Source: Marinifilum sp. N1E240 | GTDB lineage: Bacteria; Bacteroidota; Bacteroidia; Bacteroidales; Marinifilaceae | Direction: 5' to 3' | Length of the DNA stretch: 64,000 bases | Assembly (NCBI RefSeq): GCF_009295825.1 | Contig: NZ_WHKF01000003.1 | Location: forward strand, 1-64,000 | Shown here: piece by piece, positions 42,096-64,000 of the stretch | Numbering within the stretch: the first letter of the stretch is position 1 | Layout of the letters: every line of letters begins with the position of its first letter | The notes under the pieces: generated by a model | The model's database searches: none | What the model saw: the letters and a program-made list of their open reading frames with translations, nothing else | What the model was told of the DNA's origin: nothing | Made by a program: the position numbers and the translations under genes

Positions 42096-43688
42096 TTATC
42101 TTAGATATTGAGGCATAGATGCAGGATCTTTTGTCCATCGTTTCACACGATTGTTTATCATGTGAAACTCCTTATTTCTATCGGTAGGCTGATAAATATC
42201 TACAGGCAAATGCTTTTTCAGTTCTGTAATCACATCCTTATACTCAGAATTGTTTGCTAAATTTACGTGTTCACCAAAATCTTTCACTTCATCGTACAGC
42301 TCCTCTGATCCATCATTGTATCGAATGTATCTCCATTGGTCACGACGAACCGAATGAGATCCATAAGTCCAACTGCTAATTACAGGATTTTTTCTCTTCA
42401 CATCCATATCGGTCAATAATGGCAAAAGACTTTCTCCATCTTGCTGTTCATTCCTTTCCAAGCCACACAAATCGGTTAAGGTAGGATATACATCCAATAA
42501 GCTTACAGCACTTTTATTGATTTGCCCTTTAGTTGTCACACCTGGAGCAACCCATAACATTGGCGCCACAGTAGCTTCGTTCCACAAGTTATTTTTACGC
42601 CAATTTCTCTTTTCTCCGAAACACTGTCCATGATCAGACCAAAGTACAATAATTGTATTTTTTCCATACTGACTGCTATCTAAGGCGTCTAACAAGCGTC
42701 CCAATTGAGCATCCATAAAAGTGATTGCAGCGAGATAACCTTGAACCAACTCTTTACGATAAGATGGACTAATCTTATTCACTATCGCTTCTGCACCAGG
42801 CTCCGTTATTCCTTCTGCCATCGCCTTTCCATAAATAGAAATATCAGCAAATTCATTCTCCAAGGCAGTTGGAATCTTGATTTTATCCAAAGGATACATA
42901 TCAAAATACTCGCGAGGAGCAGTGTAAGGAACATGAGGTCGTAAAAATCCAACTCCCAACAAAAATGGTTTATCATGATCCTTTTGCAATCGTTCAATCG
43001 CCCATTCTACATTTTGCTCATCAGGCATTTTGCCTTCTGGTAGATATTCTCTATCAATAGGTCCAGCACAAAGAGAAAATCCTGGATAATTGGTTCCTTT
43101 TTTTTTATTATAATTTGTTGTACCCGAACCGCCCATTGGGAAAGGATAGAAATCAGGTGCACCATAACGATTTCCATCTTTCATCAATTTTTCAGTTAGT
43201 GCATAAGCTCTAGGTTTTCGCTCATCCCAGAGTTTTTGATTCTGAAAATCATCTTCAATTGCCCAACATGCATGCCCTTCAATCTTTCCGCATCCCATGG
43301 TTTCATAACCATTCTGTCTGAAAAAGGCTGGCAACAAACTTACACCATCCCAAATTTCCTGATTTGGTGTACCACTTTTATTCGTATAACATCCCGTAGT
43401 TGTAGGACTCAAAGAGGATAAAACGGATAATCGAGATGGCGTGCAAACTGCCACAGCAGCATGCGCATTGTTAAAATATACACCACGTTTTGCCAATCGA
43501 TCTAAATTTGGTGTTTTCACATCTGGATGTCCCTTAGACATTCCTGTCCAATCATTCAAATCATCAACAGAAATGAACAGAACATTTGATTTAGTCTGTT
43601 CTACTTCTTTCTTTTCAATTCCTCCTCCGCATGATTGCACTAGCAGCGCACCAGCGCCTAAAAGCAACGAGTTTCTTATCATGTTCAT
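42096..43688 (-). CDS. S1-family sulfatase, iduronate-2-sulfatase-like
   Basis: This 530-aa formylglycine-dependent sulfatase lipoprotein has lipobox Cys20 (LLVQSC). Metal-binding VDDLNDW (about 41-47) and the sulfatase motif CTPSR (Cys82, converted to formylglycine) are present, then LSPTTTGCY. The DDL...VKTPNLDRLAKRGV start, the HAAVAVCTPSR context and SDHGQCFGEKRNWRKNNLW resemble iduronate-2-sulfatases, so 2-O-desulfation of a uronate is the best guess. It is transcribed away from the other lyase genes. Subfamily assignment rests on motif similarity only. Confidence 0.85.
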   Translation of the reverse strand: MNMIRNSLLLGAGALLVQSCGGGIEKKEVEQTKSNVLFISVDDLNDWTGMSKGHPDVKTPNLDRLAKRGVYFNNAHAAVAVCTPSRLSVLSSLSPTTTGCYTNKSGTPNQEIWDGVSLLPAFFRQNGYETMGCGKIEGHACWAIEDDFQNQKLWDERKPRAYALTEKLMKDGNRYGAPDFYPFPMGGSGTTNYNKKKGTNYPGFSLCAGPIDREYLPEGKMPDEQNVEWAIERLQKDHDKPFLLGVGFLRPHVPYTAPREYFDMYPLDKIKIPTALENEFADISIYGKAMAEGITEPGAEAIVNKISPSYRKELVQGYLAAITFMDAQLGRLLDALDSSQYGKNTIIVLWSDHGQCFGEKRNWRKNNLWNEATVAPMLWVAPGVTTKGQINKSAVSLLDVYPTLTDLCGLERNEQQDGESLLPLLTDMDVKRKNPVISSWTYGSHSVRRDQWRYIRYNDGSEELYDEVKDFGEHVNLANNSEYKDVITELKKHLPVDIYQPTDRNKEFHMINNRVKRWTKDPASMPQYLR

Positions 43689-43923
43689 ATTGCTGTTATC
43701 TTGAAAGCTCGATTAATATATTTCTAATATTCCATTTGACCAAGTCTAACACCTTTTACCAAATTGTTCCAATTCAGATCTGCTATCAAAAATATTTGAA
43801 AAATCAATATTAGACACATTCTATTAATCTCAGTTTTACTATTCCATTATTCACTTTTAATTTTGTTGAAAATCTACTTTTTTGAGATAAAATCCTCAAT
43901 TCAACTTGTCCTTTAGTCTAGTT

Positions 43924-45498
43924 TTATGATTTAGGCAACAACTTTTCCCAAGTTTGTTCATTCCATTCAACGGGCTTATCCATATTTATAATCCAACCAT
44001 CAAATGCAGATTTTAACCTCTTCACTAGTTCTGAATTCTGAGCTGCAATATTGTTTTTTTCTCCCGGATCTTGTCTGATGTTGAAAAGTTCATATCTATC
44101 TCCTATCGGATAATAATGCATCATAAAATCACCTTCCAAAACTGTTCCTGCCGGATCGGACAAATGCTCACGATACTGACTAACTGGAAATGCTGTCACC
44201 TCCTTGCTTCCTTTCACATATTGTTCGTATCCTGCCCAAAAATCCAAATTTTTATCACTCCAGTGATAAGCCTGACAACCCGCCCAAAACAATTGTCTTT
44301 TCTGATTTTCTTCTCCCTTAATCACATTTTGCAAAGCAATACCATCAACCGATTTTGAAACATCAATTCCTGCTGATGCCAATGCTGTTGGCAATAAATC
44401 CATGGCAGATACATTTTCTGTTATCACTTTTCCTTCATCAATCAATCCAGGACACCAGGCAAACATCGGAACATGAATTCCTCCTTGAAACATCAAGCCT
44501 TTGTTTCCTTTAAAAGCACCATTCAAAGGAAGTGGCGAATCAATTACCGCACCATTATCGCTCACAAAAAGAATAATTGTATTCTTATCAATTTTCAATT
44601 CTTTTAGCTTAGATACAATTTGTCCGATTCCATCATCAACGGCAGCCAAGGTTGCATAGTAATTATCTACCTCAGTATTTCCTGTATTGAATCTTTGGTA
44701 TTTACGTGGAGCTTGCTCTTCCAAAGGAATATGTGGCGCATTATAAGATAAAAACATGAAAAAAGGATTTTTCTGATTCTTCTCAATGTACTGTAAAGCC
44801 TCATCGGTAAATTCATCGGTAATATACCCCTGGGATTTCACATGCTCATAATTTCTGAACAAGCTAGTCGCATTATAATAATTACTTCCGTGATAATTAA
44901 AGCCATAGTAATAATCGAAGCCTTTACTTAAAGGATGCTGATCTTTCACACAACCATAAATCGCATCACGATGATAATCTCTTGTTTTCTCAACCAGCGA
45001 ATCAATAGTTAATTCACCCAAATGCCATTTTCCAATCATTGCGGTTTTGTAGCCATTCTCCTGAAAGGTTTCTGATAAGAACTTCTCTTGCGGGCGAACA
45101 CCTGCCTCTGCATCGTAATTGTTGTAGATACCAAAACGCTGCGTATATTTTCCAGTCAGAAGTGCTGCTCTGGATGGAGCACAGGTTGTTGATGCCACAA
45201 AAGCATTGGTAAACTTCACCCCTTCGTTCGCTAACTTTGATGTATTTGGCATTGCAGTTTGAGCTGCATGATAAGCTGCCTCTACTGCCGTTGTATATCT
45301 TTTGGTAACCTGTGTATTTTTCAAGCCGTCCTCATTATAGGAACCCGGATCGAAATTTAATTGACCATATCCCTGATCATCGGTTACAACCAAAATAACA
45401 TTCGGCTGAACAGTTTCAGAAACCTGATTGATGGTTCCTGTTGAACAAGCACCCATAAGAACGGGCAACATTGCATGTATTGGTTTTGATAATTTCAC
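43924..45498 (-). CDS. S1-family sulfatase, lipoprotein
   Basis: This 524-aa sulfatase has a GTG start at 45498. It was chosen because MKLSKPIHAMLPVLMGAC is a clean lipoprotein signal (Cys18); the open frame extends 66 residues upstream without signal character. Metal motif VVTDDQGYGQ and sulfatase motif CAPSR (Cys106), followed by ALLTGKYTQRFG, are present, with the GKWHLGE motif further on. The C-terminal half has FVSDNGAVID and FKGNKGLMFQGGIHVP. Desulfation position is unknown. It diverges from the next sulfatase gene across a 240-bp shared control region. Confidence 0.85.
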   Translation of the reverse strand: MKLSKPIHAMLPVLMGACSTGTINQVSETVQPNVILVVTDDQGYGQLNFDPGSYNEDGLKNTQVTKRYTTAVEAAYHAAQTAMPNTSKLANEGVKFTNAFVASTTCAPSRAALLTGKYTQRFGIYNNYDAEAGVRPQEKFLSETFQENGYKTAMIGKWHLGELTIDSLVEKTRDYHRDAIYGCVKDQHPLSKGFDYYYGFNYHGSNYYNATSLFRNYEHVKSQGYITDEFTDEALQYIEKNQKNPFFMFLSYNAPHIPLEEQAPRKYQRFNTGNTEVDNYYATLAAVDDGIGQIVSKLKELKIDKNTIILFVSDNGAVIDSPLPLNGAFKGNKGLMFQGGIHVPMFAWCPGLIDEGKVITENVSAMDLLPTALASAGIDVSKSVDGIALQNVIKGEENQKRQLFWAGCQAYHWSDKNLDFWAGYEQYVKGSKEVTAFPVSQYREHLSDPAGTVLEGDFMMHYYPIGDRYELFNIRQDPGEKNNIAAQNSELVKRLKSAFDGWIINMDKPVEWNEQTWEKLLPKS

Positions 45499-45529
45499 GT
45501 TATTAAATTTTAATTCTATTGTAATATTC

Positions 45530-45558
45530 CAAAGATCATCATTCAACATGGTTACAAA
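45530..45558 (-). promoter_or_regulatory. Promoter candidate of the GTG-start sulfatase
   Basis: Minus-strand TTTG (45558-45555) and TGATCTTTG (45538-45530), about 31 bp before the GTG. The -7 box has G at the second position and spacing is short, so the match is weak. Confidence 0.3.
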
Positions 45559-45738
45559 GGCTAAGATCATTCGAATGAACTCCAAAATCATACGGCTTAA
45601 AGGTTCACAATACATCAACAGAACTAAATACCAGGCTTTTAAAATTTGGGACATCTTCCTAAAATGTTCAGTTTCATAATAATTGTAATTCATCAAATAG
45701 TTCTACAACTTTAAATCAGAAATCAATAAAATGTAAAC

Positions 45739-47262
45739 ATGATAAAGCGTTTAAATACAAAATTAAGTGGAGCTTTGGGGTTTTTAGCTTGTACCAGCAC
45801 TCTACTTACTTCTTCTTGTAGCAGTCAAATTGAAAAGCAATCGCAACCCAATATTATCCTCTTTTTAGTTGACGATATGGGATGGACAGATACCTCCGTT
45901 CACTTAGGTTCAGAAATGACATCGAACAATCGGTATCAAAAAACTCCAAACATGGAATTGTTGGCACAGCAAGGAATTAAATTTACAAATGCCTATGCTG
46001 CAAGTCCGGTTTGTTCTCCTACCCGATGTAGCATTCTTACGGGAAAAAATCCTGCCAGAAGCCAAATCACCAACTGGATTCCAGGGCAAGGAAATGACCT
46101 TCACGAATCGGAACAGAAATTATTCATTCCTGATTGGAATATAAATGGATTAAATGCCAAGGATATCACCATTCCTAAGATTCTTAAGAAACATGGATAT
46201 GTAACAGCACATATCGGAAAAGCCCATTTTGGAAAGGCTGAAACAAGTGGTGCCGATCCCAAAAACTTAGGATTCGATTACAATATTGCAGGGCATCACG
46301 CAGGTCATCCAGCTTCTTACTATTATCCTTATGGTGAAGAAAATAGTAACTACAAAGTACCTAGCCTTGAGGAATTTGAAAAAGACAGCTTATATCTCAC
46401 AGACGCACTGACGGTAAAAGCCACTCAGTTAATTGAACAATTTTCGACTGATAAAAAACCGTTTTTTCTGAACCTTGCGCATTATGCAGTTCATACACCA
46501 ATTCAGGAACATAAAGAATTGGTTCAGCAATTCATGCAAGAAGGAAAAACAGAAACTGAAGCCAAATATGCATCCATGGTGGCAAGTATGGATAACAGCT
46601 TGGGAAATATCATGAGCAAACTTAATGATCTTAAAATTGCAGATAATACCATTATCATATTCATGTCGGATAATGGAGGATTGGTAACTCATGCAGGTCA
46701 TCCAACTACCAATGCTCCACTTAGCGATGGCAAAGGAACTTGCCGCGAAGGTGGAATTAGAGTTCCTATGATAGTGAAATGGGCTGGAAAAGCAGAGGCA
46801 GGAACACAATGTGACGAGCCTGTAAGCAGCGATGACTTTTTTCCAACCATTTTACAGATGGCAGGAATATCTCCAAATGCTTATTTATCTGATATTGATG
46901 GTAAAGATTTAACTCCTCTTCTTACAGGTACTGGTAGTTTTAATCGTCCCGAAGGACTCTGCTTTCACTATCCTCACTATTGGGCATGGAAAGGCTTACG
47001 CGATGAATATCCTAGTATCAAACCCTTTAGTTCTATTAGAATGGGAAAATGGAAACTGTGCTATGGATATGAAGACGAAAATGTGGAATTATTCAATTTG
47101 GAAAATGATATTTCAGAGAGGGTCAATTTAGTGAAAGAACATCCTGATGTTGCTAAAAAACTATGCTCCCAATTAAAATCGTATCTGCAAAAAGTTAATG
47201 CACAAACTCCTGTAGACAGACATAGTGGTAAATCATTGCCATATCCGGATATCAAGCAATAA
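45739..47262 (+). CDS. S1-family sulfatase, lipoprotein
   Basis: This 507-aa sulfatase has lipobox Cys27 (LLTSSC). Metal motif FLVDDMGWTD and sulfatase motif CSPTR (Cys92) with CSILTGKNPARSQ are present. The later elements are GKAHFGKAE, FMSDNGGL and GKGTCREGGIRVPM. This pattern resembles the S1_16-type group, but the subfamily was not tested. It faces the DUF4861 gene tail to tail over a shared terminator. Confidence 0.86.
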   Translation: MIKRLNTKLSGALGFLACTSTLLTSSCSSQIEKQSQPNIILFLVDDMGWTDTSVHLGSEMTSNNRYQKTPNMELLAQQGIKFTNAYAASPVCSPTRCSILTGKNPARSQITNWIPGQGNDLHESEQKLFIPDWNINGLNAKDITIPKILKKHGYVTAHIGKAHFGKAETSGADPKNLGFDYNIAGHHAGHPASYYYPYGEENSNYKVPSLEEFEKDSLYLTDALTVKATQLIEQFSTDKKPFFLNLAHYAVHTPIQEHKELVQQFMQEGKTETEAKYASMVASMDNSLGNIMSKLNDLKIADNTIIIFMSDNGGLVTHAGHPTTNAPLSDGKGTCREGGIRVPMIVKWAGKAEAGTQCDEPVSSDDFFPTILQMAGISPNAYLSDIDGKDLTPLLTGTGSFNRPEGLCFHYPHYWAWKGLRDEYPSIKPFSSIRMGKWKLCYGYEDENVELFNLENDISERVNLVKEHPDVAKKLCSQLKSYLQKVNAQTPVDRHSGKSLPYPDIKQ

Positions 47263-47324: not shown

Positions 47325-48566
47325 TTAATATTCTATTGCAATTGGATGATTTACATCTAAAGATAAATCTCTTAAAAACAACTCCATTTCATCGGCTGAT
47401 GCTATTCCATTTTTTTGTTGATTCCAGGCTGCCACCACATGGTATTCCATAAAATTATCTCTTGGTGTTACTCCAATCAGGTGATTGAATTCATCCTCTG
47501 CTAATAAATCCGTCTGATATTGTTTTGGAACCAAAACACCTAAACCAACTGTAACCTTTGGGTATTTTTCATGATCAATTCTGGGAAAATCTGTTCCCCA
47601 CAAAGATATGTATCCTGCCTTTTTATTGATTTTAAGCTCTGCTCCATCCATTTTTCGAACTCCTGTACAAAAGTCTATGTCCATTTCTCCATTTATGAAC
47701 GATCTGTAAATCATCTCTCTGTGTCCTGCATAAATAATCATTCTAGAAAGTAGTTCATTCTCTCCATTTACACCTTTTGCGCACATATCGATTACCGAGC
47801 GAACCGGACCACTTGATCTGACCACGGCATATCGCCCTTTGGTTGTTTTAATGATCTGAGCTTCTTTTCCATTCCAAGTTCGCAAAGATCCAACTCCTAT
47901 AGTATTGCTAACAAACAAGATATCTCCACCATACTCATTAGCAATAAATCCATCATTAGAATACCACTTGGTTGTATCTAATTCCAGACGAGAATGAATT
48001 TTCCCATAAATATCAATACTAGAACGATCATCGAAATACATTCGGTAAGCCATTTGATCTGATTCCAGCGCCGGACCATGATGCATCGTTTCCTTATACA
48101 AATCTCCTTTTTCACTGAAAATACTGTCCTTAATAATAAATGGATTCTTCCCATTTTTAAAACCCAACTGAGCATGAGTTCCTTTCTTAAATTGGAACTT
48201 TTCAGCAACACTTTTACCAATTCTAAAAATGGTAAGTTCCGAATCCGAATTCGCACCTATTCGTACTTGACAAACCAACTGATCAGCTTTGCCATCATTA
48301 TCTAAATCATCCAATTGAGAAGAAATGATTGTATTATTCTGGCTTACCAACAGGCTGGTATTAGCATCCAGTTGCATATCCTCTTTTAGATCTGATAAAT
48401 TGATTTCTACAGGCACCAACACTCTATCCTTATTTAAAAGATTATGCAGATTAATGGTTTGATTGGCTATAACTTCTCCTTGCTTGAAAATCTGATTCTT
48501 CTGATTACTAGCACATGCACTAGTAATCAGAAGAATCAGTAAAATATATAATGGATAGTTTTTCAT
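47325..48566 (-). CDS. DUF4861-type secreted lipoprotein
   Basis: This 413-aa protein has lipobox Cys18 (LLITSAC). The sequence has the DUF4861 pattern: an LDDLDNDGKADQLVCQVRI segment near 85-105, ESDQMAYRMYFDDRSSIDIYGK, and the GPVRSVID and LGVLVPKQY stretches toward the end. The family is common in marine polysaccharide loci but its activity is unknown to me. It starts 2 bp after the PL8 gene, so it is the last gene of the minus-arm operon and shares its substrate context. Confidence 0.78.
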   Translation of the reverse strand: MKNYPLYILLILLITSACASNQKNQIFKQGEVIANQTINLHNLLNKDRVLVPVEINLSDLKEDMQLDANTSLLVSQNNTIISSQLDDLDNDGKADQLVCQVRIGANSDSELTIFRIGKSVAEKFQFKKGTHAQLGFKNGKNPFIIKDSIFSEKGDLYKETMHHGPALESDQMAYRMYFDDRSSIDIYGKIHSRLELDTTKWYSNDGFIANEYGGDILFVSNTIGVGSLRTWNGKEAQIIKTTKGRYAVVRSSGPVRSVIDMCAKGVNGENELLSRMIIYAGHREMIYRSFINGEMDIDFCTGVRKMDGAELKINKKAGYISLWGTDFPRIDHEKYPKVTVGLGVLVPKQYQTDLLAEDEFNHLIGVTPRDNFMEYHVVAAWNQQKNGIASADEMELFLRDLSLDVNHPIAIEY

Positions 48567-48568
48567 TT

Positions 48569-51481
48569 CTATTTTTTCAGTTTAATTTCCAATGGTTGTC
48601 CATCTTTTAAATGAAATGTAAGTTGTGTATTATCAGACGCACGTTCCATTTCCACATTAGATTCTTCCTCATCCAATTCCCAGATTCCATTTAATTCGAC
48701 TTGAATACTAATTATCTGGCTTTCTTTACGAGTGGTATAAGCCGATTCTTCCAAGTGCAAATCAGGATCACATATACTTAAAATCAATTCATCACCATTC
48801 TCCTTAATCATTAACAATGAGGAAGAGCTAACTCGTCTAACAAGTTGATGATTAACTTGCTTTTTTTTCTCAAAGAAAACAAAGCCTGTTGTATTGCTCT
48901 CCCTATCCCAAACAATGTGATTGATACTATCCTGTGCCAAAATTTTATATGCCGCACTCTTCGTATTCATTCCATTAGAAAAACTGGCTAAATCATCTTG
49001 AGTAATCGATGGCAACAAAACATATTCGTAAGACTGATTCCTTGGAGCTACACCATGATTAATCCAGGCTGAAGCAAAATCACCTTTCGTCTTTTTTCGG
49101 GTTTTATTGTGACATGATTCCTGATATTGCCTGACAATCTTAATATTACTTCCTTTTCTTATCCAATATCCATTGCCATAGGCATCCATCAAAGAATGAT
49201 TTTTTTTATCTGATAAAGATTGATCAAATGGAAAGTCCACGTTCGACTCACCATCAACAAAAACAGGATCTGCCTGATTATTCAAAAACCCCTGAAACAT
49301 GGTTGTTTCGGTAGGATATTCTTTGTTTGAATTGGAAATATTACTTCCCAAGCAAATGATTTTATCTCCAAAACAGAAAACCGATTTATTTGCCTGATGA
49401 TCTCCGGTGAAATTCGTTCGATTTTTTTCTCTCAATTTTATTCCAAAAATTCCATTTTCACCCAACAAATTAGATGCGCCCGCAAATCCCTCTTTCGATT
49501 TTTCCATCAAAGTTCTCTTTTCCGGACTATCTAATTTTTGTAAAGGAAGGTGAATGCTAGTTGCTCCCGGATATCTGTTCCAATCCCAACCTTCCTGAAC
49601 AAAACCACTACCATCAGAAGTTAAACTGTTCTTGTTACCAATCACCTGAACTGTTCCATAAGACTGATATCTGCCATAGCGATTGTCTTTCACATAAATT
49701 TCAGAACCCCAAACATTCTTGTTGTAACCTTTTACACTCACTGTCCAATTGCCACGGCGATGAATACCCAAAGCTCCGTAATTATATGTGTAATTCCCTT
49801 CGGGAGAAGCTTCAGCTTCGATTCCCAGTTTTACAAACTTCTTTTTTAAAGGATTATTCTTAATCTCCAAACGTAAAAATGCTTCAGCCATTTCTTTCCA
49901 AATCTTTTCGTCGGTAAATGGTTTTCCTGAATTGGCTAAATGAGCAAATGCATCTAATACTCCTTTACTCATAGATCCACTTAGAGGATGACGACCACAA
50001 ATTCCAAATCCCCAATCCAATTGATTGGAATAATTTCTCATGCACAAAAGAGCATTTCCAAAATTCAAACGAGCTTCATCAGACAAAGCAAAAGGAGTAT
50101 CATTTACCAAACTCAAAAACTCACCGATACCCGAATATCCTCCCTTACAATATGCAGGATAAAAACCACCATGATGAAATCCTGTTCCATCAGCTTTGAT
50201 TCCTCCCATTGTGCCAGGAACAATTTTTAAGGAAATATCCATCCATCTTTTTATAGCTCGAAGCTCCCTGATTTTTTCAGGAGAATCATCCATTGTCATA
50301 ATAGCTACCAAACGTGGAACTACCGATGTATTCCAGGAATCAACAACTCCCTGAAGTTCACCAACTATCGCTTTTTCTCTGTATTCCTGCACTCCAGTCC
50401 AATAATTTAGCATATCAGACACCATCTTAAGTTTCCCAGCTTTCTTTAACTCTTCTTTCATTAGATAGATGGCAGGAGGATACTCTCTAAATTGATATCC
50501 GTAATGATGGTTGGTTCCAAATCCACTTCCTAAAGCCAGACCTTGATCCATTGTGTAATCCAAAAGATCAATAAACTTTTCTTTTATATCGGCATTCTTA
50601 GTATGAAAATAACACTGTGCCAATTTTAGCAAAACTGGTCCAATATGATCCATTTTAACCTCACCAGCCTTTGCATCATATTCATCTTTACTCACAAAAG
50701 GTTTACCTGTAATTTGTCCCTTACTCCTTTCAATATCAAACTTCTTAAAGGACTTATTTATCTTTTCAATTTCCTTTTTTCCTGGTTTCTTTCCCTGATA
50801 CTTAGCAATAATTCTATCATGAATTAATAGCATTGCCTCTTTCTCCTCTGTTTGAATAGAAATTGGCAATGGCAGATCGTGTTGATAAGAGCTATACCAG
50901 TGCCACAAGGCTGTCCAATGATTATTTTTTGCTCGAGGATTAATGTATGGCAATTGAGCATCAGGAGTCATTCTTCTCTCCAAAGGTTCCGATGGAAATA
51001 TCATTCTATCGAAAAATAAGCTACCGCTTTTTACATTTTTAGGAGCATACACTTTCATAAAATTCAAATCCTCCATTCTATTACCAGTCATATCTGCAAA
51101 GCGAATCCAACAGGCACGCCACCCTTTAAAATTGATTCCATATTCGAATTGATAAGCAGATTCATCACCACATCCCAATTCAAATACAATTTTCTGATCA
51201 ATAGGATGCTCATTGTATATCCACAATCTCAAACCTCCGTTTTTTATTTCTTGAGCAATATTGATTCCTATTGGATTGTCAATTTTTAATTCACTATTGT
51301 TCTTCCAATCCCAACGAATGGATTGCTTTCCTTTTTTATAATGAGTTCCGCTAACGGAAAGTTTAGATTCCTTTGAGGTACTCCAATTGCCTGGTACTTG
51401 ATTTTCCAAATCAAAATATTGAGCATAACTCACAACACTTAAAGCAAATACAAGTAAGGAACAAAGTATTATTCTTTTCAT
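48569..51481 (-). CDS. PL8-family chondroitin-type lyase, first paralogue
   Basis: This 970-aa protein is a predicted secreted polysaccharide lyase that cuts the glycosidic bond next to a uronate by beta-elimination. A signal peptide (MKRIILCSLL... to SYAQ) follows the ATG at 51481; the ORF extends 18 residues further. An N-terminal beta-sandwich (about 20-180) precedes an alpha/alpha toroid and the C-terminal beta domains. The catalytic region has FHHGGFYPAYCKGGY (around residue 434-448) and GRHPLSG, matching the His, Tyr and Arg of chondroitinase ABC. Glu positions were not assigned. Chondroitin/dermatan is the likely substrate. Confidence 0.86.
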   Translation of the reverse strand: MKRIILCSLLVFALSVVSYAQYFDLENQVPGNWSTSKESKLSVSGTHYKKGKQSIRWDWKNNSELKIDNPIGINIAQEIKNGGLRLWIYNEHPIDQKIVFELGCGDESAYQFEYGINFKGWRACWIRFADMTGNRMEDLNFMKVYAPKNVKSGSLFFDRMIFPSEPLERRMTPDAQLPYINPRAKNNHWTALWHWYSSYQHDLPLPISIQTEEKEAMLLIHDRIIAKYQGKKPGKKEIEKINKSFKKFDIERSKGQITGKPFVSKDEYDAKAGEVKMDHIGPVLLKLAQCYFHTKNADIKEKFIDLLDYTMDQGLALGSGFGTNHHYGYQFREYPPAIYLMKEELKKAGKLKMVSDMLNYWTGVQEYREKAIVGELQGVVDSWNTSVVPRLVAIMTMDDSPEKIRELRAIKRWMDISLKIVPGTMGGIKADGTGFHHGGFYPAYCKGGYSGIGEFLSLVNDTPFALSDEARLNFGNALLCMRNYSNQLDWGFGICGRHPLSGSMSKGVLDAFAHLANSGKPFTDEKIWKEMAEAFLRLEIKNNPLKKKFVKLGIEAEASPEGNYTYNYGALGIHRRGNWTVSVKGYNKNVWGSEIYVKDNRYGRYQSYGTVQVIGNKNSLTSDGSGFVQEGWDWNRYPGATSIHLPLQKLDSPEKRTLMEKSKEGFAGASNLLGENGIFGIKLREKNRTNFTGDHQANKSVFCFGDKIICLGSNISNSNKEYPTETTMFQGFLNNQADPVFVDGESNVDFPFDQSLSDKKNHSLMDAYGNGYWIRKGSNIKIVRQYQESCHNKTRKKTKGDFASAWINHGVAPRNQSYEYVLLPSITQDDLASFSNGMNTKSAAYKILAQDSINHIVWDRESNTTGFVFFEKKKQVNHQLVRRVSSSSLLMIKENGDELILSICDPDLHLEESAYTTRKESQIISIQVELNGIWELDEEESNVEMERASDNTQLTFHLKDGQPLEIKLKK

Positions 51482-51503
51482 AGATTTTATCTTAAAATTA
51501 AAA

Positions 51504-51529: not shown

Positions 51530-51535
51530 AATCAA

Positions 51536-55392: not shown

Positions 55393-55400
55393 TCGTATTA

Positions 55401-56735: not shown

Positions 56736-57947
56736 ATGAACCGAATCTTTAGATTTACGATTCTTATAGCCTGTGTGATCAGTATGCTGTCTTGTGGGAA
56801 TCAAAAAACTTCTTTAAAGGGAATTGTAGATGAGAATGTAGATTTCGCAACGAAACAAATTGGGCGTGAAATCGAGAGTATGAATGCAAAAGGAGAAACC
56901 CTTAACCCAAGAACAATTAACGAAGATGGAACAACCAGATACAATACGCCAGAGCTTTGGACCAGTGGTTTTTTCCCTGGATCTTTATGGTATTTGTATG
57001 AGCTAACTGGTGAACAAAAATGGAAAACAGAAGCTGAAAAAATTACAGAAACCTTAGATACAGTTCAATATTTAACCTGGCATCACGATGTTGGTTTCAT
57101 GGTGTACTGTAGCTATGGTAACGGATACAGATTGACAAAAAATCCTGCTTACAAAAAAGTAATTATTCAAGCTGCAAAATCACTAAGCACAAGATTTCGA
57201 CCAAATATTGGAGCCATTCAATCGTGGAATGTTCACCGAGGTTGGCAAGCTGAAAGAGGATGGCAATGCCCAGTTATCATAGATAATATGATGAATTTGG
57301 AATTGCTTTTTGAAGCTTCAAAACTAAGTGGAGACAGTAGTTTTAGAGATATCGCAATTAAGCATGCCGAAACAACATTAGAACATCATTTTCGCCCAGA
57401 TCACAGTAGTTATCATGTAATTGATTACGACACGATCAATGGGAATGTTCGAAACAAAGTAACCGCTCAAGGTTATGCTGATCATTCTGCCTGGTCCAGA
57501 GGACAAGGATGGGCTATCTATGGCTACACGGTGTGTTACAGAGAAACCAAAGACCCTAAATACTTAAAGCAAGCTGAAGAGATCGCTAAATACTTATTCA
57601 ATCATCCAAGAATGCCTGAAGATTTAGTTCCTTACTGGGATTATGACTGTAAGGATATTCCAAAAACATACAGAGATGCTTCCGCAGCCGCAGTTATTGC
57701 CTCGGCTCTATACGAAATGAGTACCTACAACATCACAAAAAGTTCTGAATACAAAAAATATGCAGACCAAATTGTAGAAAGTTTATCCTCATCAGCCTAT
57801 CGTGCAAAATTGGGTGAAAACAATAATTTTCTTTTAATGCATAGTGTAGGAAGTATTCCTCATGGTGCAGAAATTGATGTACCGTTAAACTATGCAGATT
57901 ATTACTTTTTGGAAGCACTTACCAGAAAAAAAGAGTTAGAAAAATAA
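56736..57947 (+). CDS. GH88 unsaturated glucuronyl hydrolase
   Basis: This 403-aa lipoprotein (lipobox Cys20, SMLSC) hydrates the unsaturated uronate left at the non-reducing end by lyases and so releases it. The GH88 alpha/alpha barrel is clear: ELWTSGFFPGSLWYLYEL, HHDVGFM with Asp118, IIDNMMNLELL with Asp183 (the catalytic pair), and WSRGQGWAIYG. It completes the lyase pathway in this locus. It is the first gene of the plus arm; a perfect hairpin follows its stop. Confidence 0.93.
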   Translation: MNRIFRFTILIACVISMLSCGNQKTSLKGIVDENVDFATKQIGREIESMNAKGETLNPRTINEDGTTRYNTPELWTSGFFPGSLWYLYELTGEQKWKTEAEKITETLDTVQYLTWHHDVGFMVYCSYGNGYRLTKNPAYKKVIIQAAKSLSTRFRPNIGAIQSWNVHRGWQAERGWQCPVIIDNMMNLELLFEASKLSGDSSFRDIAIKHAETTLEHHFRPDHSSYHVIDYDTINGNVRNKVTAQGYADHSAWSRGQGWAIYGYTVCYRETKDPKYLKQAEEIAKYLFNHPRMPEDLVPYWDYDCKDIPKTYRDASAAAVIASALYEMSTYNITKSSEYKKYADQIVESLSSSAYRAKLGENNNFLLMHSVGSIPHGAEIDVPLNYADYYFLEALTRKKELEK

Positions 57948-57994: not shown

Positions 57995-58105
57995 CACTAT
58001 AACCCATTTGAACTCCCAAATTCATAATCTGGCACCTTTGTATGCAGATGAAAACCCAAAAAATCAATAAGATTTATTTTATTGCAACCGATTAAAACGA
58101 TCAAA

Positions 58106-61100
58106 ATGAAAATATCACTACATTATAAATTAATACTGATTTTTCTGATATCATTCTTCAATAAAGTATCAGCACAGGATTTTTTCCATCCTGCCATTAT
58201 CTCTTTTGAAGAATCAAAAAATCAAAATTGGTCTACTCCATCCCCATCTAGCATTGCGACAAGCACAGCACACTACAAACATGGCAAACAAAGTTTGCAG
58301 TGGACATATTCACCAAATTCTGAATTGAAATTAAGTCAGAACATCAATTTCAAACCGTTCGATCCAAATGCTATTGACAAATCGATTCCAACTTTTTGTG
58401 TTTGGATTTACAATGAAACCCCTAAAGATGAGAAAATCAAATTTCAATTCTTAACAGATAAACAAGTCAATTGCGAATTCGAATTTGGAATTAATTTTAA
58501 AGGTTGGCGTGCAGCATGGGTTGCCTTTGAACGTGATATGAAGGGAAAACCAGTAACAAGTATGAACAATATGAAGATCATTGCTCCTGAGAATAATTCA
58601 GGAACATTATTTTTCGATCATATCATGCTTTGTACAAATGCTGATAGCAGATGGAATACACCTGATTATCAGATTCCTTTTGTGAATGCCCAAACTAAAA
58701 ATCATTGGTTAATTCTTTACAAGTCTAGTTTAAACAAGCCTTCTGAGAAACTTCAACCCATAACACAAAAACAGATCAAAGGCATTCAAACCATTAACAA
58801 AAGATACAGCAAGGATGTAATCAAAAAACTAAAAGTCAACTCAAAACTACTTAGCAAACTGAGAAAGGCTTATAGTCAATATGGTATTACTCGAAACAAT
58901 GAGCAAATATCCGGTAAGGTGATGTGGTTCTGTCGTTTTTCAGAAATTTATAAACCATACACTTCAAAATTTAAAAACTATCACAACAAAAACGGAAAAG
59001 GTTTTAAAGCTTATACAAAACTAATGTTCGAGTTGGCTTCAGCTTATAATCAAACCGACAATGCAGAATATAAAAAAGAATTGGAAGAACTCTTCTTCAA
59101 TATGTCCGATCATTTAATTGACCAGGGATGGGCTGAAGGAAGTGCAAACGGAACACTACATCATTTGGGTTATAGCATGAGAACCTACTATGCTGCTTAC
59201 TTTTTAATGCGCGAATCGTTAATTCGTACTCAGCGTGCCGAACAGGTTCAAAGAGCAATGGAATGGTATTCTGGCGCCAAAGAAGTCTTTGCTCCTATTC
59301 ACGAAAAAGGCATGAGTATCGATGCTTTCAATACTTCTGTTATGGGGCGCTTGGCAAGCATTTTAATGTTGGAAGATTCACCTGAAAAAGTTCGTTTTTT
59401 AAATGCCTACATTAAATGGATTGATAATGGTTTGGCTTACGCTCCCGGAGTGAAAGACTCTTTTAAAGTAGATGGTTCGGTTTTTCACCATGCCAATAAC
59501 TACCCTGCTTATGCCAACGGAGGTTACGATGGCGCAACAAAAATGGTCTATTTCTTTAGTAGAACTCCTTTTCATGTTTCTGAAGAAGGTCACAGAATCT
59601 TAAAGGAATCTTTACTAAAAACGCGCCTATTCTGTAATAAAAAAACCTGGCCTACCTCTATGTCTGGTCGTCATCCTAATGGAAAAGGAAAGCTTTCTGC
59701 AGATCATTATAAGTTTATGGCTTTATCAGGAACTCCTGATAGAAAAAATAAGATTGATGAAGAAATGGCCGCTGCTTATTTAAGGCTAATGCTTGATAAA
59801 AAAGAAAATAAAACAGTTAAGAGATTACAAAAGTTAGGCTATAAAGCAGAATCAGATCCCAATGGAAACTGGACCATGAATTATGCTGCATTAGGCATTC
59901 ATCGTAGAGATAATTGGTCGGCAACGGCACAAGGGCACAACCGCTATTTATGGGCTGCTGAGCACTATATTGGAGCTAATTATTACGGTCGTTACATGAA
60001 ACATGGTCAAGTTCAAATCATCTCAGGAGATAAGAACCCAAGCGTATTTACCTCAGGCTTTAATGTAAATGGATGGGATTGGGGACGTTTTGCGGGAACC
60101 ACCGCTATTCATCTTCCAATCGAAAAACTTCGCGCAAATATTCTTAATATTGATCAACTTACTGGTTATGAGGAAATGTTGATCTCCGATGAGATTTTTG
60201 CTGCTGCTATCTCTCTTGAAGGAAAAAATGGTGCATGGGCTATGAAATTGCACGAACATGACAAGTATAATGGTTCACATCATGCTACGAAATCTGTATT
60301 CTTTTTCGATAACAGAATCATTTGTTTGGGGAGTGATATTGAAAATACAAATACTGAATATGAAACCGAGACCACTCTTTTTCAAAACTATTTGAATGAG
60401 GAATCAGAAAGCATCACATTTAACAAAAATGAAATCAATCAGTTTCCTTTCAAGCAAGTAAGTCAAACTAAAAGAGCCAGTTTATTAACCGACAATGTTG
60501 GCAACAGCTTTTATATTCCCGCTAAGTATACTGTTGAAGTGGGTAAACAATTGCAACACTCAAAAGATCAGAAAAAAGAAACCCCAAATAAAGGAAACTT
60601 TACAACGGCTGTAATTAAACATGGGAAAGCACCTAAAAATGCTGACTATGAGTATGCGATTCTTGTGCAAAGCACACACAACGAACTCGTACAATTTGCC
60701 AAACAAATGAGCAAAAAGAAGAAAATGGCATATACTGTTCTTCAAAAAAATAAACAAGCTCATATTGTTAGAGATCATGCAACTGAAATAACTGCTTTTG
60801 CCTTATTCGAATCAAATTCCAATGTAAATCAATCAGACTTGATCTCGGTAAACGCACCTGCCTTAGTCATGATAAAAGACAAAGACAACACTAAAATAAT
60901 GAGTCTTTGCGATCCGGATCTTCATCTATATGAAGGAGAAGCTGATGTTGTTATGGAAAATGGTAAGCGAAAAGAAAGAAGTGTTTACTCGAGAGATTGG
61001 GTACGAAATGAAAGTAAGGTTTCAAAAATACAGCTTAGCATTAAAGGCAAATGGTCATTAAAATCAAATGAATATTGCAAGATAATAAGCAGCAATGCGA

Positions 61101-61171
61101 ATGTAACCATTCTCGAATTTTCTTGCCAACATGGGCTAACAAGAGAAGTTGAATTAATAGCAAATAATTAA
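58106..61171 (+). CDS. PL8-family chondroitin-type lyase, second paralogue
   Basis: This lyase (1,021 aa from the ATG at 58106) has a signal peptide ending VSAQ; an upstream in-frame TTG at 58082 would add eight residues. Its layout mirrors the first PL8 protein: N-terminal beta-sandwich (HYKHGKQSLQW against HYKKGKQSIRW), toroid, and C-terminal beta domains. The catalytic region has FHHANNYPAYANGGY (about 460-475) and GRHPNGKGKL. The C-terminal half shares LHEHDKYNGSHHATKSVFFF-type patterns with it. The two differ enough to act on different sulfation patterns. Confidence 0.87.
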   Translation: MKISLHYKLILIFLISFFNKVSAQDFFHPAIISFEESKNQNWSTPSPSSIATSTAHYKHGKQSLQWTYSPNSELKLSQNINFKPFDPNAIDKSIPTFCVWIYNETPKDEKIKFQFLTDKQVNCEFEFGINFKGWRAAWVAFERDMKGKPVTSMNNMKIIAPENNSGTLFFDHIMLCTNADSRWNTPDYQIPFVNAQTKNHWLILYKSSLNKPSEKLQPITQKQIKGIQTINKRYSKDVIKKLKVNSKLLSKLRKAYSQYGITRNNEQISGKVMWFCRFSEIYKPYTSKFKNYHNKNGKGFKAYTKLMFELASAYNQTDNAEYKKELEELFFNMSDHLIDQGWAEGSANGTLHHLGYSMRTYYAAYFLMRESLIRTQRAEQVQRAMEWYSGAKEVFAPIHEKGMSIDAFNTSVMGRLASILMLEDSPEKVRFLNAYIKWIDNGLAYAPGVKDSFKVDGSVFHHANNYPAYANGGYDGATKMVYFFSRTPFHVSEEGHRILKESLLKTRLFCNKKTWPTSMSGRHPNGKGKLSADHYKFMALSGTPDRKNKIDEEMAAAYLRLMLDKKENKTVKRLQKLGYKAESDPNGNWTMNYAALGIHRRDNWSATAQGHNRYLWAAEHYIGANYYGRYMKHGQVQIISGDKNPSVFTSGFNVNGWDWGRFAGTTAIHLPIEKLRANILNIDQLTGYEEMLISDEIFAAAISLEGKNGAWAMKLHEHDKYNGSHHATKSVFFFDNRIICLGSDIENTNTEYETETTLFQNYLNEESESITFNKNEINQFPFKQVSQTKRASLLTDNVGNSFYIPAKYTVEVGKQLQHSKDQKKETPNKGNFTTAVIKHGKAPKNADYEYAILVQSTHNELVQFAKQMSKKKKMAYTVLQKNKQAHIVRDHATEITAFALFESNSNVNQSDLISVNAPALVMIKDKDNTKIMSLCDPDLHLYEGEADVVMENGKRKERSVYSRDWVRNESKVSKIQLSIKGKWSLKSNEYCKIISSNANVTILEFSCQHGLTREVELIANN

Positions 61172-61176
61172 TAACT

Positions 61177-61261: not shown

Positions 61262-62764
61262 ATGATTAAAAAAAATATATCCCGAAGAAATTTCTTAAAA
61301 AGTTCAGCTGCTGTTACAGCTGGTTTGACCTTGATTCCGCAAGGCTTCCTTACCTCTTGCATGAAGAATGGAAAAAAACCAAATTTACTTTTCATCTTTC
61401 CTGATCAATACAGAAAACAGGCTATGGGATTTATGAATCAAGATCCAGTTAGCACACCTAATATCGATGCGCTGTCAAAACAAGGGGTTGTATTTTCAAA
61501 TGCTGTAAGTAATCATCCACTTTGTAGCCCCTACCGAGGGATGCTTTTAACTGGTAAATATCCTTTATCAAACGGTGTTCTTTCAAATTGTCACTCAGGT
61601 CGTACAAAACATGGGAATTTTTTAAAGCCTGATGATGTTTGCTTCTCGGATGTGCTATCACAAAACAATTACAATGCAGGATACGTTGGTAAATGGCATT
61701 TAGACGGACCAGAACCTCCTGAAGATGGGAAAGCTAATGTTTGGGATTCGTATTGCAAACCTGGCAGATATCGTCACGGGTTCGATTTTTGGTATTCCTA
61801 CGGAGCTGATGACAACCATCTAACTCCGCATTATTGGATTAACGAAGCTAAGGAAGAAGAAGCGAAGTACTTTGAACAATGGTCTCCGGAGCATGAAGCC
61901 GAAGTTGTTCAAAAATACTTGCAAAATGCTGGTGATAAGTTTAGAGATGATGAAAAACCATTCGCTTTATTCTGGGGAATAAATCCTCCTCACCATCCAT
62001 TCAACCTGGTACCCGAGAAATACAAAAAAAACTTCGAAGGTAAAACTGAAAAAGATGTATTGAATAGACCTAACGTTCAGTTTAGCAATAATACTGAAAT
62101 GGGTGATCACGGATTTGGTGATATGTGGGTTGATGATCGAATTGATCAATCGACCGATTATTTTGCCATGTGTGAAGGTGTTGACGAACAAATTGGGAAA
62201 GTTTTACAAACTCTAAAAGAACAAGGATTGGATGATAATACTATTGTCATTTTCACTTCCGATCATGGCGAGATGCTAGGTAGTCATGGCATGATGCACA
62301 AGAACATCTGGTTTAGTGAAGCTTATGATATTCCGTTTATTATTCGTTGGCCTAAAAAGATAAAGCCTGGAACTGATGATCTTCTTTTGAGTGTTCCCGA
62401 CATTATGCCAACATTGCTAAGTTTAATGGGAATGAAAAAGGATATTCCTGCTGAAGTAGAAGGTAAAGATTACTCAGGAATATTTAAAAATGAGCCAGTG
62501 GAAAGACCTGAAGCTGCATTGTATTTCTTTGCAAAACCTGAGGATGAAACTGAAAAAAGAAGGGGTGTAAAAACCCATACTCATACCTATGTGATTGCCT
62601 ATGATAATAAAGGTGAAAAACATCAATTCTTATACGATGATGTAAATGATCCATATCAGATGAAAAACATTTATGGTGAAAATACAGAATTGGAACAGGA
62701 TTTAACCGAAAAATTACGTGAAATTCTTATCAGAACAAATGATCCATTTATCTCACTATTGTAA
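61262..62764 (+). CDS. Tat-exported S1-family sulfatase with CSPYR motif
   Basis: This 500-aa sulfatase has a twin-arginine-type start (ISRRNFLKSSA). The metal motif is FIFPDQYRKQ in place of the usual DD; the sulfatase motif is CSPYR (Cys88, Tyr91), followed by GMLLTGKYPLSNGV. FTSDHGEMLGSHGM and GKWHLDGPE complete the active site. Tyr in the fourth motif position is less common than Ser or Thr, but C-x-P-x-R is kept. Together with the lyases it probably removes sulfate from unsaturated disaccharides. Confidence 0.86.
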   Translation: MIKKNISRRNFLKSSAAVTAGLTLIPQGFLTSCMKNGKKPNLLFIFPDQYRKQAMGFMNQDPVSTPNIDALSKQGVVFSNAVSNHPLCSPYRGMLLTGKYPLSNGVLSNCHSGRTKHGNFLKPDDVCFSDVLSQNNYNAGYVGKWHLDGPEPPEDGKANVWDSYCKPGRYRHGFDFWYSYGADDNHLTPHYWINEAKEEEAKYFEQWSPEHEAEVVQKYLQNAGDKFRDDEKPFALFWGINPPHHPFNLVPEKYKKNFEGKTEKDVLNRPNVQFSNNTEMGDHGFGDMWVDDRIDQSTDYFAMCEGVDEQIGKVLQTLKEQGLDDNTIVIFTSDHGEMLGSHGMMHKNIWFSEAYDIPFIIRWPKKIKPGTDDLLLSVPDIMPTLLSLMGMKKDIPAEVEGKDYSGIFKNEPVERPEAALYFFAKPEDETEKRRGVKTHTHTYVIAYDNKGEKHQFLYDDVNDPYQMKNIYGENTELEQDLTEKLREILIRTNDPFISLL

Positions 62765-62880
62765 TAACTTTTAGCATATCGTGATAGGGAAAAGGAGTAG
62801 TATTGAGCAATTCTATTTTTTTTATTGAATTATCGCTTCATTTTGAATACTCAATACTCTCCTTTTCAATTTTAAAAATT

Positions 62881-63738
62881 ATGAAGATCAAACTGAAATA
62901 TTTATTAATAGTTGCTTGTATCTCTTATTCACAGTTAATTTTTGCCCAGGAATCATTAGAGATAGGTAAAAGTAAAACACTGGTATATGAGTGTAATTTC
63001 AACAATAAATCATCCTTAAACGATTGGGTAATGGAAGGTCCCGGAATTGCAAAAATCAACAAAGGGAGATTGGAATTGTATTCGCGATACCACAAAAAAG
63101 TAAACCGAAGAATGAAAAAAGGTGAACTGGTATTCGAAGAGAATTCTCCCAAATGGTACCAGTATTATGTGGATGGTTTAGCTAAGAAAGTTGAACCTGA
63201 AATATATCCTATTTACAAATCGGGAAAAAATTTCAGAGGCGGACATTTGGTCTATTGGAACAAAACCATTTCTCCAGAAAACTATGTAATTGAATTTGAC
63301 TTTCAGAGTCCAATTCCCTATCCATTGCACATGATCATGTTTTCTGCCACTGGTAAAAATGGTGAAAATGTATTCGATTCTAAACTAAAACCTCGCTGCG
63401 GTTTGGCAGGACAATACACCAAAGGGGATCTACACAACTATCGAATTTCTTTTCTTGCTCCAAAACGAGGAACTGCCAATATGCGCAAATGCCCGGGAAG
63501 AAGATTGGTCACAAAAGGAAGTGATCTTACATTAGATGATTTAACCGGAAAACATCACATGAAAGTAATCAAGTGGCAAGACCAGGTTGAGTTCAGAATT
63601 GATGGAAAATTGGTCTTTGTGTATACCGATGATGAAAAAGAAAAAGACAAAGCCTTTGGTGCCGGACAAACTGCCATTCGATTAATGGTTCCTGCAAGAG
63701 GTTTCTACGATAACTATAAAATTTACGAGTTAAAATAA
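62881..63738 (+). CDS. DUF1961-type secreted protein
   Basis: This protein (285 aa from the ATG at 62881) has a signal peptide (MKIKLKYLLIV... ending FAQ); an ORF beginning upstream at TTG 62803 adds 26 residues without signal character. It is a jellyroll-like protein of the DUF1961 type: VYECNFNNKSSLNDWVMEG, YPIYKSGKNFRGGHLVYWNK, FQSPIPYPLHMIMFSATGKNG and VEFRIDGKLVFVYTDD. DUF1961 members often sit beside polysaccharide lyases; their activity is unknown. A terminator follows. Confidence 0.75.
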   Translation: MKIKLKYLLIVACISYSQLIFAQESLEIGKSKTLVYECNFNNKSSLNDWVMEGPGIAKINKGRLELYSRYHKKVNRRMKKGELVFEENSPKWYQYYVDGLAKKVEPEIYPIYKSGKNFRGGHLVYWNKTISPENYVIEFDFQSPIPYPLHMIMFSATGKNGENVFDSKLKPRCGLAGQYTKGDLHNYRISFLAPKRGTANMRKCPGRRLVTKGSDLTLDDLTGKHHMKVIKWQDQVEFRIDGKLVFVYTDDEKEKDKAFGAGQTAIRLMVPARGFYDNYKIYELK

Positions 63739-63757
63739 TTGATCCGAAATCAATTTT

Positions 63758-63793
63758 AAATTCCCTTTCCAGAAATGTAAAGGGAATTTTTGT
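63758..63793 (+). terminator. Terminator of the plus arm
   Basis: AAATTCCCTTT and AAAGGGAATTT perfect arms with a 10-nt loop, followed by TTG. It ends the GH88-PL8-sulfatase-DUF1961 transcript. Confidence 0.75.
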
Positions 63794-63949
63794 TTCTATC
63801 AGGATCGTTGAATCTATTTTCATTTTATTACCCGAACCTATCCCAAATTTTAATTTTGGCACTCCCAGAAGCCTTTTATATAAGCAAAACTCAGCATAAT
63901 TCAATTATTTCGTGATTCAATAAAACTCACACCTAAGACTGAAAAAAAT

Positions 63950-64000
63950 ATGCGACTGCCACTTGTTCTTACCTCTCTTCTTTTCATTTTAAGCCTAACA
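63950..64000 (+). CDS. 5' end of a further secreted protein, cut by the window end
   Basis: An ATG at 63950 opens a frame that runs to the window edge: MRLPLVLTSLLFILSLT, a typical signal peptide core. The product cannot be named from 17 codons. In this position a hybrid two-component sensor, a SusC-like receptor or another hydrolase would all be plausible. Confidence 0.55.
   Translation, partial: MRLPLVLTSLLFILSLT

Follow-up and report, generated by a model that had tools for sequence, protein, structure and literature searches.

Gene content and extent of the locus

We analyzed the first 64,000 bases of contig NZ_WHKF01000003.1 (622,765 bases) of Marinifilum sp. N1E240, hereafter the window, in which polysaccharide lyases (PL), a GH88 enzyme and sulfatases are encoded from 42096 onward. 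The locus formed by these genes is an ordinary, complete and continuous polysaccharide utilization locus (PUL) that is cut by the end of the window, since it runs on for another 31 kb on the same contig. The genes in the window are probably the enzyme half, and those beyond it the remainder, of one ~52-kb PUL for chondroitin/dermatan sulfate at 42096-94759.

Pfam domain scanning of the window, which covered the genes at 42096-63738, confirmed two PL8 lyases, a PL6 lyase, a heparinase II/III-like protein (HEP), GH88 and four S1 sulfatases where an initial annotation of the window had placed them, and further identified DUF4861, DUF6250 and DUF1961 proteins. The same annotation had described two arms diverging from 56133-56735. 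This divergent region was exact (603 bp), as was the point of divergence, but the left arm is not a single unit because a plus-strand sulfatase gene at 45739-47262 splits it. Its tight minus-strand block, at 47325-56132, comprises five genes with gaps of 2, 0, 23 and 8 bp. The features in the window are listed below, with the basis of each assignment in brackets.

42096-43688, minus strand: S1a, S1 sulfatase, CTPSR motif (Pfam, PDB search, motif)
43924-45696, minus strand: S1b, S1 sulfatase, CAPSR motif (Pfam, PDB search, motif)
45739-47262, plus strand: S1c, S1 sulfatase, CSPTR motif, strand opposite to its neighbors (Pfam, PDB search, motif)
47325-48566, minus strand: DUF4861a, DUF4861 protein with a lipobox-like N-terminus (Pfam, model)
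48569-51535, minus strand: PL8a, chondroitinase-ABC-type lyase (Pfam, alignment)
51536-53926, minus strand: HEP, heparinase II/III-like, DUF4962 plus Hepar_II_III_C (Pfam, alignments)
53950-55392, minus strand: PL6 lyase, Pfam Chondroitinas_B, PF14592 (Pfam, PDB search)
55401-56132, minus strand: DUF6250 protein (Pfam)
56133-56735, no strand: divergent intergenic region, 603 bp (gene coordinates)
56736-57947, plus strand: GH88a, unsaturated glucuronyl hydrolase (Pfam, PDB search)
58082-61171, plus strand: PL8b, chondroitinase-ABC-type lyase (Pfam, PDB search)
61262-62764, plus strand: S1d, S1 sulfatase, Tat-type signal (Pfam, PDB search)
62803-63738, plus strand: DUF1961 protein (Pfam)
63950-66283, plus strand: TonB-dependent outer-membrane receptor, OMP_b-brl_3, only its first bases in the window (Pfam)

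The initial annotation was titled as a locus without SusCD, and stated that neither SusC/SusD nor a hybrid two-component system (HTCS) occurs up to 64000, so that uptake and sensing genes are either downstream or absent. For the 12 genes at 42096-63738 the statement is correct, and a whole-genome SusD search listed no SusD in 1-64000. Nevertheless, the TonB-dependent receptor already begins at 63950, and extension of the sequence past 64000, as that annotation had proposed, revealed all of the genes sought on the same contig, with a regulator starting at 66.6 kb, SusD at 71.0 kb, SusC at 72.6 kb and the HTCS at 83.0 kb. The uptake and sensing genes are thus downstream and not absent, and the title does not hold, as two SusCD pairs and an HTCS lie further along. 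Positions past 64000 are given in contig numbering, which is continuous with the window.

66618-69485, minus strand: propeller/AraC regulator (Pfam)
69668-70936, minus strand: GH88b (Pfam)
70983-72575, minus strand: SusD1 (Pfam)
72629-75766, minus strand: SusC1 (Pfam)
75856-77451, minus strand: surface glycan-binding protein (SGBP), BT4661-like Pfam family (Pfam)
77831-79360, minus strand: SusD2 (Pfam)
79415-82462, minus strand: SusC2 (Pfam of the N-terminal piece, similarity to SusC1)
82990-87078, minus strand: HTCS, complete (Pfam)
87187-88506, minus strand: major facilitator superfamily (MFS) transporter (Pfam)
88541-89209, minus strand: 2-keto-3-deoxy-6-phosphogluconate (KDPG) aldolase (Pfam)
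89240-90280, minus strand: PfkB-family kinase (Pfam)
90304-91572, minus strand: second DUF4861 protein (Pfam)
91753-92544, minus strand: KduD-type short-chain dehydrogenase/reductase (SDR) (Pfam)
92582-93469, minus strand: KduI (Pfam)
93740-94759, plus strand: LacI regulator (Pfam)

Two adjacent SusC/SusD pairs therefore occupy 70983-82462, and the lyases, GH88 enzymes and sulfatases are linked to a dedicated regulator, the HTCS, as is expected of a PUL. The HTCS contains HisKA, HATPase, receiver and AraC domains. CarboxypepD_reg and Plug were matched by the N-terminal piece of SusC2 and by its full-length ortholog in a relative, G334; the C-terminal piece scanned alone gave no Pfam match, and SusC2 shares 34-36% identity with SusC1. 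The regulator at 66618-69485 resembles an HTCS in its propeller and AraC domains, lacks a Pfam kinase or receiver domain, and is kept in the relatives G334, G332 and G296.

Because SusCD, SGBP and HTCS begin just beyond 64000, their absence from the window is an artefact of its edge. A locus that truly has no SusCD or sensor of its own and relies on distant genes, as the initial annotation's title implies, is very improbable, and for the gene content of this genome it is refuted by the two SusCD pairs, SGBP and HTCS lying 7-23 kb further on the same contig. We also compared the stretch beyond DUF1961 in five relatives. The whole block from DUF1961 to LacI is kept in G334; G332 keeps it as far as KduI and G296 as far as LacI, both without the TonB receptor and the latter with one SusCD pair. 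Besides the composition of the 12 window genes, what favors a locus without its own SusCD is that the other two of the five, G299 and G329, have the enzyme block and show no SusCD block in the stretch covered, which also counts against our assignment.

Separately, a tRNA-Tyr/Gly/Ser array at 40234-41642 adjoins the locus and carries recent tandem copies, namely three copies of a 218-nt unit (95% to the reference) and two of a 178-nt unit (99%), with a spacing of 800 bases.

Chondroitinase-type lyases, sulfatases and GH88

The closest solved match of PL8b was the chondroitinase structure 2q1f, with 945 bits over residues 17-1025, and PL8a matched the same structure with 485 bits. In the alignment, PL8a and 2q1f have identical residues in the His pair, in His-x6-Tyr, at the Arg of GRHP and at the Glu preceding YGRY, the last two of which we take to have catalytic roles in PL8. 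PL8b shows the same active-site motifs (paired His, His-x6-Tyr, GRHP and the YGRY region). Among the residues given in Table 4 of PMC12088678 (excerpt) are His345, His454 and Tyr461 of 2q1f. The locus thus has two ABC-type PL8 lyases, as is characteristic of a PUL for chondroitin sulfate, dermatan sulfate and hyaluronic acid (CS/DS/HA).

Genome-wide, PF00884 gave six matches. The clustering of sulfatases here is not due to chance, since four of these six sit in this locus of a 4.98-Mb genome. All four carry the C-x-P-x-R (Cys-type) motif, and one sulfatase-maturing radical-SAM protein above cut-off is encoded elsewhere in the genome. S1d best matched the CS/DS 4-O-endosulfatase 6j66 (405 bits), followed by the endo-4-O-sulfatase 6s21 (342 bits), which is presumably BT3349; judged on sequence alone, S1d would be a GalNAc-4-sulfatase of the BT3349 kind. 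The best solved matches were the arylsulfatase 6hhm (188 bits) and human iduronate-2-sulfatase (157 bits) for S1a, and 6uss (418 bits) and 7oza (399 bits) for S1c. S1b has no close solved relative, its best match being a carrageenan sulfatase at only 182 bits, and its listed TTG start probably lies upstream of the true one; full-length orthologs have 527 (two) or 529 aa (one). None of the best solved matches of the four sulfatases was labelled S1_15 (GalNAc-6-sulfatase kind). GH88a best matched 3wiw (396 bits), which we take to be of heparin type.

The near-full-length matches of the PL8 lyases to chondroitinase ABC and of S1d to a 4-O-endosulfatase support a sulfated galactosaminoglycan well, in agreement with the chondroitin/dermatan breakdown proposed by the initial annotation. 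That annotation had named placement of the lyases in alginate families as the result that would speak against it, which was not observed for PL8 but may apply to PL6, whose best solved matches are alginate lyases, as described below. The natural substrate could instead be a bacterial or algal sulfated glycosaminoglycan (GAG)-like exopolymer and not animal CS/DS. Marine anaerobes (Pontiella) make such exopolymers (PMC7356697, excerpt), and the closest named relatives, Marinifilum and Labilibaculum, appear in marine-sediment reports (a reference title in PMC7356697; PMC12325347; both excerpts). We consider this quite unlikely, given the close matches to enzymes acting on animal GAGs and the lack of any sequence sign of a non-animal backbone.

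Conserved core and variable cassette in Marinifilaceae

Next, relatives were searched in a set of 56 genomes of the family Marinifilaceae, to which Marinifilum breve also belongs. PL8b was found at 75% identity or more in 10 of the 56, own genome included (13 with any match at 1e-20). HEP at 67% or more and PL6 at 57% or more each occurred in five of the 56, again counting our own; two more genomes matched HEP over fewer than 180 residues, and any PL6 match at 1e-10 was seen in 10. At these identities, all HEP and PL6 holders fall among the 10 PL8b genomes. Ten loci were then compared: our own, G334, G331, G332, M. breve (L014, from outside the 56 genomes), G333, G299, G329, G296 and G326 (two contigs). 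The open reading frame (ORF) table of G326 is that of Labilibaculum locus L015, and the two were counted as one genome; the PL8b holder G298 was left out of this comparison.

PL8a is present in nine of the ten loci, in broken form in G332; in G326 it does not lie between HEP and DUF4861a. The G332 copy is spread over three ORFs (L051, about 2348-5878), reflecting a frameshift or a sequence error. PL6 and HEP are each found in six loci: our own, G334, G331, L014 and G326 have both, G333 has PL6 without HEP, G332 has HEP without PL6, and G299, G329 and G296 have neither. S1a was found in six of nine assessable loci (our own, G331, G332, L014, G333 and G326) but was absent from the G299, G329 and G296 stretches; the G334 contig ends before the S1a position and was left out of this count. 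The presence of S1a fully matched the presence of PL6 and/or HEP (9/9 loci), which is suggestive and, as several genomes are close kin, no statistical proof. S1c occurs in five of these nine, G326 having S1a without S1c, and DUF4861a occurs in six of the ten, all except G332, G299, G329 and G296. G326 and G329 belong to one genus, yet differ in the cassette.

A third PL8 gene stands at the divergent junction in all eight relatives that cover it (G299, G329, G296, G326, G334, G331, G332 and L014). Where whole, its product has 750 aa, and in the M. breve copy Pfam identified Lyase_8 with the AC-type N-domain Lyase_8_N. No remnant of it was detected in our gap at 56133-56735; the best tblastn hit (E 0.025) falls in the GH88 gene. 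These results indicate that the loci consist of a PL8 core plus a variable cassette of PL6, HEP, S1a and S1c. Such natural cassette-plus and cassette-minus loci within one family offer a ready comparison of the genes needed for dermatan sulfate.

Substrate of the PL6 and HEP cassette

The PL6 protein belongs to the PL6 fold family (PF14592, 185 bits) and matched no NCBIfam family. In the PDB search its similarity to dermatan lyases did not exceed that to alginate lyases: 7o84/7o7a, both alginate lyases, scored 166 bits, above the dermatan lyase Pedsa3807/7o78 (117 bits) and chondroitinase B, 1dbg (108 bits). With 1dbg and 7o78, dermatan lyases of PL6_1, it has in common the Pfam family, the single-domain size and the setting in a GAG locus. 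We file it as PL6 only, with alginate and dermatan both as candidate substrates. A literature search found no joint mention of 7O84 and PL6.

HEP showed DUF4962 (PF16332; 34.8 bits, cut-off 28.7), the type of toroid domain expected of dermatan-sulfate epimerase 1 (DS-epi1), and Hepar_II_III_C (25.9 bits, cut-off 24); no NCBIfam family was matched. As a single sequence, its best solved match was 6lja at 30 bits, an exo-heparinase in Table 4 of PMC12088678 (excerpt). A six-row profile, whose scores may be tilted by one homolog of 24% identity, ranked human dermatan-sulfate epimerase 6hzn (100.6 bits) and the oligo-alginate lyase 3a0o (96.4 bits) above the PL35-type lyases 8khv and 9o3q (68.7 bits) and 6lja (62.1 bits). 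Since 6hzn and 3a0o differ little in score, no family is singled out. HEP thus scores similarly against GAG/alginate lyases and against the animal epimerase, two groups whose evolutionary relationship PMC11848413 (section 17) describes as unclear. An AlphaFold2 model of HEP from a four-row alignment (mean pLDDT 52) was too poor for a fold search.

His193, Tyr249, His421 and Tyr444 of HEP are invariant in both the four-row and the six-row alignment. The profile alignment with 3a0o pairs His193 with the SHAVRS His and Tyr249 with the EGPHY Tyr, and it places His421 at the SHSHGD stretch; HEP has the His(/Asn), Tyr, His catalytic set of PL15/PL35 as taken from Table 4 of PMC12088678 (excerpt). 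The 3a0o His aligned with His193 is the base of PL15 (H311) and PL21 (H202) against L-iduronate (IdoA) (PMC11848413, section 17). For the PL35 GAGases II and VII, the excerpt of PMC12088678 lists no residues beyond Tyr, a single His and Asn, and it links the ability to act on both glucuronate (GlcA) and IdoA to an additional His that ABC lyase and heparinase II possess. Against the epimerase, Tyr249 and Tyr444 align with the Tyr of EGVAY and ALYG, respectively, and the His is one column off; the DS-epi1 residues His205/Tyr261/Tyr473 (PMC8006597, excerpt) were located by motif, not by numbering. Compared with the superfamily of PL15, PL21, PL35 and DS-epi1 (6lja, 3a0o, 8khv, 9o3q and 6hzn), HEP appears to share the His/Tyr/His/second Tyr positions and, in a low-confidence model, the helical N-terminal and beta C-terminal halves.

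HEP is rare. It had matches in 19 of 295 genomes of the order, own included, of which only our own was close, followed by G094 (28%) and G131 (26%). A scan of named genomes, which may leave out records near our own, returned three HEP loci, one in M. breve (71%) and two in metagenome-assembled genomes (MAGs), of Labilibaculum (68%) and of Prolixibacteraceae (45%). The three homologs from beyond Marinifilaceae-type genomes (G131, G094 and L016) share 24-46% identity. Around the Prolixibacteraceae homolog (L016, 9977-12274) no labelled PUL gene was seen. By its sequence, HEP would be a rare protein, unassigned to any family, that is related to dermatan-sulfate epimerase as well as to PL15 and PL35, and it may be a lyase or an epimerase. 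A speculative reading, which we hold to be improbable, places HEP in the epimerase line within a catabolic locus, either as a lyase that acts on dermatan and founds a new family, or as a uronate C5-epimerase that flips IdoA/GlcA along the chain and thereby lets the PL8 lyases complete its breakdown. To our knowledge, no bacterial C5-epimerase of that catabolic kind has been described, and the exact phrase "bacterial dermatan sulfate epimerase" had no match in the open-licence literature.

Whether the cassette is directed to dermatan, that is, to iduronate, is in our estimate evenly balanced. In the PL6 reaction, the L-uronate at +1 retains its C5 configuration (PMC4954714, excerpt), and this chemistry together with the His/Tyr/His set of HEP, which its iduronate-acting relatives also have, points to an L-uronate; the linked sulfatases then favor iduronate over guluronate, and S1a supports iduronate because it resembles iduronate-2-sulfatase.

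Instead, PL6 and HEP may act on alginate or another non-sulfated L-uronate polymer, with the locus serving two substrates. The ranking of PL6 matches and the second place of 3a0o in the HEP profile agree with this, as does the inclusion of both alginate and dermatan lyases in PL6_1 (PMC4954714, excerpt). However, the cassette co-varies with the sulfatase S1a, and mostly with S1c, which alginate would not need, and it sits inside the PL8 core in the Marinifilaceae loci compared. The block also contains KduI/KduD-type genes, whereas the alginate route uses a 4-deoxy-L-erythro-5-hexoseulose uronate (DEH) reductase in their place. We therefore regard alginate as rather unlikely.

Somewhat less unlikely, though still a minority view, is a combined CS and heparan sulfate locus in which the cassette serves heparin/heparan sulfate, with HEP as an exo-heparinase resembling PL15 and S1a as the 2-O-sulfatase. 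The single-sequence match to 6lja and the S1a likeness fit this, and SGBP falls in a BT4661-like Pfam family. Asn192-His193, Tyr249 and His421 of HEP also resemble the 6lja residues of Table 4 in PMC12088678 (excerpt) in order and spacing, compared by list and not by alignment. In contrast, the HEP profile places dermatan-sulfate epimerase, oligo-alginate lyase (PL15) and PL35 over 6lja, no further lyase of another family was found among the Pfam-scanned genes, and PL6 is counted with the families whose GAG targets are CS/DS/HA only (PMC11848413, excerpt).

Taken together, several points weigh against a dermatan-directed cassette. The alginate-leaning scores of PL6 are one; the best matches of HEP (6lja) and GH88a (3wiw) make a heparin-like cassette substrate possible; the cassette association is drawn from a small number of related genomes, with G326 lacking S1c and G332 lacking DUF4861a; and the PL8 ABC enzymes alone may be able to handle dermatan.

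DUF proteins and the divergent region

DUF4861 was found in 25 of 247 genomes of the class, own included. Among 23 stretches around it, some genomes giving two, a KduI or KduD/SDR-like ORF was present in 10 and directly adjoining in 8; as SDRs are common, the five with KduI are the safer count. Against NCBIfam, DUF4861 gave a weak match to the BT3233 family (46 bits, cut-off 320). The model of DUF4861a (pLDDT 89) suggests a mutarotase-like beta-supersandwich, with fold matches to 7dd9 (VIA; Z 16.6, 3.5 A over 252 residues) and the PL26 structure 5xqg (Z 12.7), and Foldseek query TM of at most 0.45. This likeness to mutarotases and GH38 C-terminal regions is general, and no function follows from it. 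The locus has two copies (47325-48566 and 90304-91572), and the family shows invariant Glu, Arg, Tyr, Asp and Lys positions in a 26-row alignment. No mention of DUF4861 was found in the literature, and the family is a component of uronate catabolism that still calls for explanation.

The two arms each encode one of the DUF6250 and DUF1961 proteins, which are weakly similar to each other (pair E 5e-5) and matched no NCBIfam family; one Fusarium paper was the literature mention found.

Within the divergent gap, a near-palindrome, TTGTTCGTACAA, lies at 56319, and an inverted near-copy, TTGTACGAACAG, at 56463, 144 bases apart. As the pattern, with one substitution allowed, was present in none of six relative sequences scanned, an operator is not claimed. 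The Bacteroidetes -33/-7 promoter pattern matched three times in the window (3.5 expected) and not in the divergent gap.

Proposed pathway

Surface proteins would bind the polymer, and SusC1D1 and SusC2D2 would import it, as members of their families do. On strong homology, PL8a and PL8b are expected to cleave chains with GlcA and IdoA through beta-elimination. S1d would take the 4-O-sulfate off GalNAc, as its tested homologs do, with S1a, S1b and S1c taking off further sulfates at putative positions. By family, GH88a and GH88b would split the unsaturated disaccharides, and pathway knowledge suggests that KduI, KduD, the KdgK-like kinase and KDPG aldolase produce pyruvate and triose phosphate from the unsaturated uronate. 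The HTCS may sense disaccharides, analogous to BT3334 of Bacteroides thetaiotaomicron. The cassette of PL6, HEP, S1a and S1c would extend this core to L-iduronate-rich blocks of dermatan.

Comparison with known systems

A false lead, that of a PUL without uptake genes, is thus replaced by a testable one: the locus is probably a chondroitin/dermatan sulfate PUL and a marine relative of the B. thetaiotaomicron CS/DS/HA PUL, its specificity being predicted from gene content. Its interest is modest and rests on HEP and the iduronate-cassette hypothesis. No joint mention of Marinifilum and chondroitin was found in the literature, and the words chondroitin, PL8 and PL6 are absent from the main text of a 2025 comparison of Marinilabiliales PULs (PMC12325347).

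The B. thetaiotaomicron PUL contains two PL8, PL29, GH88, S1_15 and S1_27 sulfatases, one SusCD, an HTCS and two SGBPs (PMC6994673, excerpt). Two PL8, GH88, a 4-O-sulfatase, SusCD, SGBP and HTCS are common to that PUL (BT3324-BT3334 plus BT3348-BT3350) and to the present locus; PL29 was not identified here, no specific search for it having been made. In contrast, our locus has in addition PL6, HEP, two SusCD pairs, two GH88 and more sulfatases, and its block includes DUF4861, DUF6250 and DUF1961 proteins together with Kdu and KDPG genes. PUL25 of Bacteroides caccae (PL35, GH88, GH109 and GH154; PMC12269599, excerpt) is likewise a chondroitin locus, in which PL35, a relative within the HEP superfamily, is paired with GH88. 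However, according to the same excerpt, PUL25 has no chondroitin-sulfate sulfatase gene, whereas the Marinifilum locus combines four sulfatases with two PL8 lyases.

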